From an uncultured Clostridia bacterium (GTDB lineage: Bacteria > Bacillota > Clostridia > Oscillospirales > Ruminococcaceae): DNA of 64,000 bases. The stretch lies in NCBI GenBank assembly GCA_947627985.1, contig CANQYD010000001.1:62001-126000 (forward strand), read 5' to 3'. Made by a program: the position numbers and the translations under genes. The notes under the pieces were generated by a model. The model did not search any database. It saw only the letters and a list, made by a program, of their open reading frames with translations, and was not told where the DNA came from. Below, piece by piece: positions 45,996 through 48,925 of this stretch (positions are counted from its first letter, which is position 1; every line of letters begins with the position of its first letter).

Positions 45996-46473
45996 CGGAT
46001 TTGCCGACCGAAGCTCGGCAAAATAGCAGTATGCTTTGAAAAACTGCTTTGTTACGACAGCATGGGAAATAAGGCAAGCCTTGATAATACGCAAGTGCCC
46101 CATATCCTCCGCTCCCTTTGCCAAAAGGTAAATCAAATTCCCGCAAGAGCAGAAATTTGATATGCTGTTTAAAGCAGACCCCCACCCCCGCCGAAGCTTG
46201 TGCAGACTTAAAGTCAAGCGGAACCCCCTTCTCCTAAAAAAAGGAGGGGGGAAAGGCTTTGAAAAGCGTCCTTCCCTAAATATTTTCCCACCCTTTGTGC
46301 AACATTAACCTTTTAACATCAATCTTTGACATATTTTCTACCTATTTGCCGATTTACATTCCCGAAAAAGCGTGTATAATATTTATTAAGGCACGCTATC
46401 ACGACATCTTCATAATATAATGTTCCAAGTAAATGCAAAGCGGGGGAGTGAAAAGCTCTCCCGTTTTGCGTTG

Positions 46474-46501: not shown

Positions 46502-46576
46502 AAAAATATTCTAAACCCTGCATATGCAGCCGCGTTTTTGCGACATATATAGTAGAAGACGCAAGGAGGGATAAAA

Positions 46577-47131
46577 ATGGAGGACGCCGAGATCATTGCG
46601 CTGTATCATCGCCGTGACGAACGTGCAATCACCGAGACCGACATCGCTCACGGTGCTTTCTGCCGAAGGATCGCGATAAATATTTTGGACATACGGGAGG
46701 ACGCCGAGGAGTGCGTCAACGATACTTGGCTCGCGGCATGGAATAAAATGCCGCCGGACAGACCCGACTGCCTTCGTGCTTTCTTGGGTCGTATCACGAG
46801 AAATCTCTCAATTTCAAGATTTCGGAAGATCAGGGCAAAAAAGCGCTTTTCCGGCATGGAGATCATGCTGAGCGAGCTCGGGGAATGCATATCCGACTCA
46901 AATGTTGATAAAGACATCGACGGCAGGGAGCTTTCGCGTATCATCTCGGGGTGGCTCGACCGCTTGGACAGAACCGACCGAGCCCTTTTTGTCCGCAGAT
47001 ATTGGTACGGCGATCAGCTCAAAAATTTAGCGGAGGAGTGCGGGATCCCGGTGGACAAACTCGCAAGGAAGATGCAGCGGCTCCGTCTGAGCCTCAAAAA
47101 AGAACTCGAAAAGGAGGGCGTCGAAATATGA
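46577..47131 (+). CDS. ECF-type sigma-70 family RNA polymerase sigma factor
   Basis: DAEECVNDTWLAAWNKMPPDRPDCLRAFLGRITRNLSISRFRK (region 2); region 4-like LDRTDRALFVRRYWYGDQLKNLAEECGI; GGAGG SD. Confidence 0.92.
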   Translation: MEDAEIIALYHRRDERAITETDIAHGAFCRRIAINILDIREDAEECVNDTWLAAWNKMPPDRPDCLRAFLGRITRNLSISRFRKIRAKKRFSGMEIMLSELGECISDSNVDKDIDGRELSRIISGWLDRLDRTDRALFVRRYWYGDQLKNLAEECGIPVDKLARKMQRLRLSLKKELEKEGVEI

Positions 47132-48888
47132 ACGAAGAGGACCTTTACGACGGCATCACAAATATCCGGGACGACCAAATCAGTGCTGCGGAGGAACTTC
47201 CAAAGTCCCGAAAAACTCCATGGCTAAAGGCTTTGCCGATAGCTGCCGCGTTCATTCTCGTTGCAGCCGTCGGGATATATCTCTCAGCCCTCGGCAGAGA
47301 TAATTTCAATAAAATTCCCGATGAAGATGACCCTGCCCCTCCCTCGGTTACGACGGTTTTTGAAACCTTGCCGTCTCCTTCCTCAACTTCAGCATTGACA
47401 TCTTCATCTCCGACCGAATCTGCACCGCCCGCACTTACCACGGAAATCCCGGCTACCGTACTTTTACCCGATACAATGTCCGCCGAACCCGGCTCTACCC
47501 ACACTATCGCCGAGATCACACCCGAACCCGAGATAACAAAATCCACCGTACCCAAAGAAACCGTCGCAACTGACCTCCCGCAGACGGAATCATCAGCCCC
47601 AAAAAGCAAACCCGAGACCCAATCCGACCCCGAACCCATCGAAAATAAAGTCGGACACGCGCTCATGCTTGCAAGCCCCAACTATTCCGAAACGATCGCA
47701 TACCGGGAGGACATGTCGCAGGAGGAGATTTTGGAATATTACAGCGCCCGCGTTGAAAAGGGTCAGCTCTCAAAGACATACAGCAGCCGCCTCGGGGGAT
47801 TCACCGAGAAGATCATGCCGGCGCTCCTAACAAATTCCGGGGACCGAAACCGCGTATGTTCGCCTCTTAATCTCTATCTTTCCCTCGCGATGCTTACCGA
47901 GATCACCGACGGCAGCACCAAATCTCAGCTCCTCGATCTTTTGGACTGCCAAGATGAAGACGCCCTCCGCGAGACCGCCGACGCCGTCTACAGGACGAAT
48001 TACACCTTCGACCCGACCTTTGTCAGCAAGCTTGCAAATTCCGTCTGGTTAAGCGATGATTTTAGATATTTTAAGCCGCCGATATCGACGCTTTCCGAAA
48101 CCTACCGAGCCTCCGTTTACAGCGGCAGAATGGGAAGCGGGGAATATGACGAAATGCTCCGCTCTTGGGCTGATGAGAACACCGGCGGGCTTCTTGACGG
48201 CATGACCTCCTCCCTGCACTTTGACCCCGAGACCGTGATATCTCTTGCCTCCACCGTCTATTTCAGCGGCAGATGGTCGGAAGAATTCAATGAGGACATG
48301 ACCGACGCCGGAATTTTCCACACGCCTTCCAAAGACGCCGAAGCCGATTTTATGCATGCAAAACGCGATACCTCCTATTATTGGAGCGATCACTTTTCCG
48401 CGATAAATTTAAACATATCGGACGGTCCCTGCTCGCTCTGGCTCTTTTTGCCTGACGAAGGCGTGAGCACAGATGAGCTGATAAACAGCGGTGAAATAAC
48501 CGACTTTTTAAGCGCCGGGATCACACAGCGAAACAGCAAGTTTGTAAACGTCAACATGTCGATACCGAAGTTTGACGTCATGGGAGGCGCCGATATCAAA
48601 AGCTCCCTGAAAGCCCTCGGCGTGGCTGATATTTTCGACCCCGACAGTGCCGACTTTTCGCCGCTTGTGGGTGATGATAAGGCATTTTTGTCCGGGATCA
48701 TGCATGACGTCCGCGTCAAAATCGATGAAGAGGGGATAGAGGGAGCGGCGCTTACTGTTTCGGCTGTCGCGGGAGACCCTATGCCTCCCGATGAAAAAGC
48801 CGATTTTATCCTCGACCGACCATTTGTCTTTGCCGTCACGACATATAACGACTGCCCTATATTTGCGGGAGTTGTGAATGAACCGTAA
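47128..48888 (+). CDS. Anti-sigma-like N-terminal tail + TM + linker + serpin (I4) domain fusion
   Basis: MNEEDLYDGITNIRDDQISAAEELPKSRKTPWLKALPIAAAFILVAAVGIYLSALG; P/S/T-rich linker; serpin motifs NRVCSPLNLYLSLAMLTEITDGST, LANSVWLSD, VNMSIPKFDV, EEGIEGAALTV hinge, RPFVFAVTTYNDCPIFAGVV; ATGA overlap with sigma gene. Confidence 0.9.
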   Translation: MNEEDLYDGITNIRDDQISAAEELPKSRKTPWLKALPIAAAFILVAAVGIYLSALGRDNFNKIPDEDDPAPPSVTTVFETLPSPSSTSALTSSSPTESAPPALTTEIPATVLLPDTMSAEPGSTHTIAEITPEPEITKSTVPKETVATDLPQTESSAPKSKPETQSDPEPIENKVGHALMLASPNYSETIAYREDMSQEEILEYYSARVEKGQLSKTYSSRLGGFTEKIMPALLTNSGDRNRVCSPLNLYLSLAMLTEITDGSTKSQLLDLLDCQDEDALRETADAVYRTNYTFDPTFVSKLANSVWLSDDFRYFKPPISTLSETYRASVYSGRMGSGEYDEMLRSWADENTGGLLDGMTSSLHFDPETVISLASTVYFSGRWSEEFNEDMTDAGIFHTPSKDAEADFMHAKRDTSYYWSDHFSAINLNISDGPCSLWLFLPDEGVSTDELINSGEITDFLSAGITQRNSKFVNVNMSIPKFDVMGGADIKSSLKALGVADIFDPDSADFSPLVGDDKAFLSGIMHDVRVKIDEEGIEGAALTVSAVAGDPMPPDEKADFILDRPFVFAVTTYNDCPIFAGVVNEP

Positions 48889-48894
48889 AAAATT

Positions 48895-48920
48895 GAGCCG
48901 ATCCCAAAGCGGGTCGGCTC
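48895..48920. terminator. Hairpin between converging genes (likely bidirectional terminator)
   Basis: GAGCCGATCC-caaagc-GGGTCGGCTC flanked by A-rich left and T-containing right sides. Confidence 0.65.
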
Positions 48921-48925
48921 GAAGT

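Follow-up and report, generated by a model that had tools for sequence, protein, structure and literature searches.

Class II anti-sigma factors of the CnrY type have a cytoplasmic part of less than 50 aa with two helices that wrap around the sigma factor, and Class I anti-sigma domains comprise at least 50 aa, often with an Hx3Cx2C motif. RsgI-type anti-sigma factors have an N-terminal domain of their own and an autocleaving periplasmic domain, and their partner is SigI. In Clostridium thermocellum, RsgI and SigI form many paralogous pairs, in which one conserved cytoplasmic module is connected to swapped C-terminal sensors, including peptidase-like ones (PMC12203970). RsiV holds the sigma factor SigV and both binds and inhibits lysozyme, after which signal peptidase and a site-2 protease destroy it (PMC5014341, PMC6066255). 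As for serpins of gut bacteria, that of Bifidobacterium breve is protease-inducible and autoregulated via a two-component system (PMC8012564), and the siropins inhibit neutrophil elastase and proteinase 3 (PMC5127057).

The locus described here combines an ECF sigma factor with a membrane-anchored serpin. It is located in the window, i.e., the whole stretch of 64,000 nucleotides from an uncultured Ruminococcaceae bacterium that was analyzed (Table 1). The product of the first gene matches Sigma70_r2 of Pfam above the cut-off (E = 6.8e-9) and the ECF superfamily model TIGR02937 with 54.5 bits (cut-off 42.9), whilst the match to Sigma70_r4_2 (E = 0.0015, 18.6 bits) stays under the cut-off of 25.7 bits. 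With only the Sigma-70 regions 2 and 4 in ~180 aa, it has the build of an ECF sigma factor. The second open reading frame (47128-48888, + strand) encodes a protein of 586 aa, which consists of a 32-residue cytoplasmic tail, one transmembrane (TM) helix, a disordered P/S/T-rich stalk, and a complete serpin; its residues 1-220 match no domain recognized by Pfam. A longer version from a GTG at 46951, proposed by the program listing the reading frames, is spurious, since the ATG at 47128 with the ATGA overlap is the version kept in relatives. The ATGA overlap reported in the initial annotation was borne out, and the N-terminus, TM helix, spacer (disordered at about residues 59-161), hinge EEGIEGAALTV, and full serpin domain described there are all present. 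Thus, the gene has the position of an anti-sigma gene: it lies directly 3' of the sigma gene, is translationally coupled to it, and encodes a single-pass protein with its N-terminus inside. The hairpin behind the serpin stop codon suggests that the two genes form a bicistronic unit, and an autoregulated two-gene unit is the simplest reading of the locus.

Table 1. Features of the sigma-serpin locus (positions in the window; residues of the 586-aa protein).
Feature	Position	Strand	Basis
Putative ECF-type autoregulatory promoter	46520-46544	+	Motif common to same-genus orthologues
Ribosome-binding site AGGAGG of sigma gene	46564-46569	+	Sequence
ECF sigma factor gene	46577-47131	+	184 aa; Pfam Sigma70_r2 and TIGR02937
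Cytoplasmic anti-sigma-like tail, residues 1-32	47128-47223	+	Non-serpin tail profile; low-confidence AlphaFold2 helices
Single TM helix, residues 36-55	47233-47292	+	Sequence; AlphaFold2 helix; basic N-terminal side (N-in)
P/S/T-rich disordered stalk, residues 59-161	47302-47610	+	pLDDT below 50
YSETIAYRED, degenerate copy of the conserved A.YPEMP.YPD just before the serpin	47683-47712	+	Alignments
Serpin domain, residues 225-586	47800-48885	+	PF00079, E = 5e-56; Foldseek
Hinge and reactive-centre loop, P17 E534 to about P4' (EEGIEGAALTVSAVAGD/PMPP)	48727-48789	+	Alignment with fusions and solved serpins
Terminator-like hairpin just 3' of serpin stop	48893-48922	+	Count of such sites not clearly above shuffles

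The putative promoter is composed of a -35 element GCATAT (46520-46525), a spacer of 14 nt, and a -10 element GCGAC (46540-46544), followed by ATATATAGTAGAAG. The orthologues of the same genus have GCATAT-N14-GCGAC or GCGTC, followed by a TATATTATAGAAG-like stretch, at about 30-60 nt upstream of the start codon. When the longer pattern was searched in the window genome and in genomes G399 and G401, the match without mismatches was the operon itself, and the copy at the operon of G410 has GCGTC and one mismatch. Thus, by its sequence, the operon looks like the one obvious site of this pattern in four genomes of the genus. A two-box pattern of the ECF type, written after inspection of the sequences, was enriched upstream of the paralogous sigma genes, with 37 occurrences in 110 upstream regions as compared to 1.4 in dinucleotide shuffles. 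Together, the genus-shared motif and this enrichment support the autoregulatory ECF promoter assumed earlier. Further upstream, there is a near-consensus sigma-A promoter, TTTACA-N16-TATAAT (46353-46380), with a strong hairpin (46432-46472) about 50 nt past it, which may represent a short leader or an independent small transcript. No match to a known RNA leader was found near the gathering score of Rfam upstream of the sigma gene.

An AlphaFold2 model of the serpin protein, built on an alignment of 42 relatives, shows two short predicted helices in the cytoplasmic tail (residues 3-11 and 15-22, pLDDT about 60). With less than 50 aa, the tail would fit CnrY in length, and it has two helices predicted at low confidence ahead of one TM helix; CnrH (4cxf, E = 1.5e-6) is the closest solved relative of the window sigma factor. 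A comparison of the tail with the PDB chains, CnrY included, gave no detectable match in sequence. Also among the other solved or curated anti-sigma domains in Pfam, NCBIfam, and the PDB chains, no significant match was found. A zinc anti-sigma domain was ruled out because the tail lacks Cys and His and has no match in Pfam or NCBIfam, and with 32 aa and no anti-sigma domain match the tail does not belong to Class I (ZAS or three-helix ASDI) either.

The identity of the tail emerged from comparison with its counterparts. A profile of 25 tails from proteins without a serpin, when searched against the whole genome, recovered the window serpin tail with an E-value of 1.6e-11. Exactly seven full-length matches were present, each directly behind one of seven ECF genes; six of these are members of the profile by construction, but the serpin tail is not. 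On a profile of non-serpin tails, the cytoplasmic segment of the window protein scored 16.1 bits, whilst the best of 1,700 shuffles of the cytoplasmic residues reached 7.8 bits, and 15 of 17 serpin tails outscored all of their own shuffles; tails of the L056/L059/L076-type subclade have weak scores. The shared consensus is approximately A-I/M-x-x-I-D-x-x-x-I-x-E-A, followed by a basic stretch and the TM helix. As a basic stretch and a TM helix suffice for a signal anchor, and as weak matches elsewhere in the genome (the next one at 2.5e-5) cover only that half, the tail and TM helix could merely anchor a surface serpin next to an unrelated or coincidental ECF gene. This reading is highly improbable: full-length matches in the genome are confined to positions behind ECF genes, shuffling of the cytoplasmic residues abolishes the match, and the pair is kept across genera, whereas other inspected serpins of the family start without the tail. 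Hence, a generic signal anchor, the outcome that the initial annotation had opposed to its own proposal, is largely refuted by the profile and the shuffles, and its guess of a zinc-less anti-sigma factor fits a short two-helix module that is common to every paralogous ECF partner in the genome.

The genome of 2.16 Mb contains six further paralogues of the window sigma factor (32-43% identity; two more distant ECFs were excluded from this set). Each of their genes has an overlapping or abutting partner encoding the same type of tail with a quite different ectodomain. These six ECF/anti-sigma pairs (L002-L007, on contigs C22, C8, C48, C52, C3, and C3, respectively) have mostly unrecognized ectodomains. 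When relatives were included, a tail gene was found behind 35 of 36 loci with an ECF of this group, and in an additional set of paralogous ECF loci almost every one has it as well. The exception among the 36 (L101/L214, G409:C16) is an orthologue of the window sigma gene whose contig extends only about 430 bp further downstream. Neither a tail gene nor a serpin gene is found in those 430 bp, which may reflect a lost partner or an assembly break. The tail family is widespread among the relatives, and Pfam and NCBIfam hardly cover it; DUF4179, the RsiV-type domain, is matched by 2 of 30 members without a serpin. Because of the profile score and the restriction of the seven full-length matches to positions behind ECF genes, the tail is, on the grounds of homology to the cytoplasmic parts of other ECF partners, the cytoplasmic module that is common to an anti-sigma family with swapped ectodomains, the serpin being one of these. 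Paralogous pairs in one genome, a common cytoplasmic module, and swapped ectodomains are also features of RsgI. In contrast to RsgI, the partner is an ECF sigma factor, and none of the RsgI domains was matched in the window protein (Pfam, NCBIfam), which was therefore not assigned to that family. A serpin ectodomain is not named for RsgI in the literature examined.

The sigma-serpin pair, whose conservation the initial annotation had considered decisive, is retained in relatives. In the family, serpins are present in 107 of 397 genomes, and within 60 serpin regions, picked so as to include lower-scoring serpins, 13 loci besides the window, from about 12 genera, have an ECF gene overlapping or abutting a gene for a tail-TM-serpin protein. 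Three orthologues from the same genus keep the pair, with sigma factors that are 64-66% identical. When 85,462 species genomes were scanned, 68 related loci were obtained, 55 of which showed the ECF-tail-TM-serpin architecture, mostly with the ATGA overlap; since the motifs for the scan were derived from six close fusions, this is not an unbiased frequency, and a few of the 68 loci come from genomes that were also part of the family search. Carriers include Ruminococcus flavefaciens (YRD2003), Ruminococcus sp. YE71, Mageeibacillus, Acutalibacter, and many Oscillospiraceae, Lachnospiraceae, and Clostridiales bins, largely from rumen, caecum, colon, and rabbit gut. Given the same-genus orthologues and the dozens of loci in other genera, the pairing is beyond chance.

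Other inspected serpins of the family have lipoprotein, secretory, or dockerin-type starts and no tail. Those of L178, L181, L185, and L199 have a similar YP-type motif before the serpin, lipoprotein-like starts, and no adjacent ECF gene; thus, this serpin clade also exists outside the switch. At L064 (G198:C112), a second gene for a TM-anchored serpin without the tail motif is located directly upstream of the sigma-serpin pair. At L202, L203, and L204, a second ECF gene follows the pair, and its partner begins with MRTKEERLLDVIGDTKDRNVLAAV and scores poorly on the tail-plus-TM profile.

Sigma factor, tail, stalk, and serpin have evolved in different ways. On the sigma tree, the serpin label requires 12 changes, at least six of which are forced by well-supported branches, as compared to a mean of 39 for shuffled labels. 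Thus, the serpin is clustered, yet it has been gained or lost several times, and a single origin of the sigma-serpin pair was rejected. Among 61 fusions, tail divergence correlates with that of the sigma factor (r = 0.73) and less so with that of the serpin (0.48). Partial Mantel correlations are 0.67 for tail and sigma factor given the serpin and 0.29 for tail and serpin given the sigma factor, both above all 2,000 permutations. As the closeness of tail and sigma factor on the DNA may contribute, this co-inheritance supports, but does not prove, that the two are a cognate pair. With omega values of 0.03-0.27, the tails evolve under purifying selection, whilst in most pairs the stalk is the fastest-evolving part. 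Between L171 and L175, the sigma-tail-TM part is 67-88% identical at the nucleotide level, whilst the serpin part is mostly 97-100% identical, over a tract of about 1.2 kb on the serpin side of the gene (L171:4300-5500). This is a recombination tract, and it shows that the serpin evolves independently of the sigma-tail unit.

This mobility between sigma lineages, with at least six forced changes and separate recombination, and the unrelated ectodomains that the other six pairs of the genome carry on the same tail, can also be explained if the protein is a genuine anti-sigma factor whose serpin is merely a delivered effector. The fusion would then only tie serpin display to sigma activity, and the signal would be another one, e.g., envelope stress, a ligand of the stalk, or loss of secretion. 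We consider this unlikely, as the variable ectodomain is normally the sensor in such families (RsgI, PMC12203970; RsiV, PMC5014341) and as, within the genus, the sigma factor seems to act mainly on its own operon.

The ectodomain itself contains all parts of a serpin. The PF00079 match spans positions 6-370 of 370, consistent with a complete fold, and in the AlphaFold2 model a long helix (residues 198-234) leads into a confidently modeled serpin, which Foldseek aligned with tengpin, conserpin, and PAI-1 at E-values down to 1e-28. The reactive loop has a low pLDDT at residues 547-557. In the fusions, the hinges keep P17 Glu, P15 Gly, P12 Ala, and P8 Thr, with Cys, Val, or Ile at P14; in the window hinge, EEGIEGAALT, P9 Leu and P14 Ile are atypical. 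Inhibitory serpins have P17 Glu, P15 Gly, small residues at P12-P9, and an exposed loop of 17 residues, and judged by alignment the hinge is of this inhibitory type. At P2-P1, most fusions have Gly-Ala/Gly, which hints at a target of the elastase or subtilisin type. By counting, P1-P1' in the window protein would be Asp-Pro. Such a bond is a poor one for serine proteases, and the scissile bond of the window protein is therefore uncertain. The idea that Asp-Pro is an autocleavage site was dropped, as it is not conserved in other fusions.

Perhaps, the serpin is not inhibitory but serves as a binding domain, by which a ligand is sensed, or a protease that is bound without being trapped. The residues at P14, which replace Thr or Ser, and the predicted Pro at P1' of the window protein would fit such a function, as would the stronger conservation of P2-P1 and P3' in the fusions than in the free serpins of the family. 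The fusions are, however, more alike overall (mean identity 48% vs. 33%), which explains part of their loop conservation, and P15 Gly, small residues at P12-P10, and P8 Thr are retained, which makes a non-inhibitory domain improbable.

We propose, with a probability of roughly 0.58, that the protein is an anti-sigma factor which, similar to RsiV, both senses and inhibits its target, in this case extracellular proteases. Via its short tail, the protein would keep the sigma factor at the membrane, with the serpin displayed outside the cell on a flexible stalk. Extracellular proteases attacking the serpin or the stalk would be trapped, and the ectodomain would be shed or cut. The remaining membrane stub would be removed by regulated intramembrane proteolysis, i.e., by a site-2 protease and then a cytoplasmic protease, and the freed sigma factor would transcribe its own sigma-serpin operon again, so that the spent inhibitor is replaced. 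In this model, we infer sigma binding, protease inhibition, the nature of the signal, a protease, and the relay of proteolytic steps, whilst computation shows the architecture, the homology of the tail, its conservation with the pair, the joint inheritance of sigma factor and tail, the promoter motif, and the inhibitory-type hinge.

The initial annotation had suggested that rearrangement of the serpin itself releases the sigma factor. Such rigid coupling is unlikely, since the stalk is disordered and the distance between the end of the TM helix and the first serpin motif varies about five-fold among the fusions, from 38 to 201 residues; for the same reason, loss or cleavage of the ectodomain, rather than a transmitted change in shape, probably starts the relay. 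No obvious conserved site-1 sequence was found in the stalk. The plainer alternative offered earlier, a tethered serpin with its own regulator, describes much the same object; here, the tether is the regulator. It is possible, but rather doubtful, that the protein is a single-use covalent receptor, in which the sigma factor is freed by a transmembrane signal that consists in the suicide reaction or in the loss of the used serpin. If so, one inhibitor would be consumed, and its replacement ordered, per signaling event, which would amount to a self-titrating protease thermostat on gut Clostridia.

The sensor-inhibitor that we favor shares with the RsiV/SigV system of Bacillus and Clostridioides (ECF30, DUF4179) a sigma gene followed by a gene for a single-pass anti-sigma factor, a short cytoplasmic part, and, to judge by its putative promoter, self-induction. 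By analogy, its ectodomain may both inhibit and sense an enzyme, as that of RsiV does for a host enzyme (PMC5014341). It differs from RsiV by the absence of a DUF4179 match, on account of which membership of that family was dismissed, and of obvious amphipathic helices past the TM helix. Furthermore, its ectodomain, carried by a long disordered stalk, is a predicted suicide inhibitor of proteases, whereas RsiV has a reversible lysozyme-binding domain. With the B. breve system it has in common a serpin of a gut bacterium and, probably, its autoregulation, protease induction being a feature of B. breve; there, however, the sensor is a separate two-component system, whilst the window serpin and the anti-sigma factor are parts of one protein. 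Siropins and the cellulosomal serpins of Clostridia belong to the same superfamily and occur in the same kind of hosts, but no anti-sigma tail or sigma neighbor is mentioned for them.

A literature search, with subscription papers mostly outside its scope, found no published description of a serpin with an ECF sigma or anti-sigma factor. What is new is the type of ectodomain, a serpin, in a switch of the known ECF/anti-sigma kind. To our knowledge, serpins are known as inhibitors and not as receptors. If the proposal is correct, gut bacteria would sense host, dietary, or rival proteases directly via a serpin, with sensing, neutralization, and resupply coupled in two genes, and the RsiV principle, i.e., sensing and inhibition of the same enzyme by an anti-sigma factor, would be extended from lysozyme to proteases. 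Moreover, the locus points to ECF switches with swapped ectodomains as a large family in Oscillospirales and Lachnospirales that has been little explored and of which this genome alone has seven.
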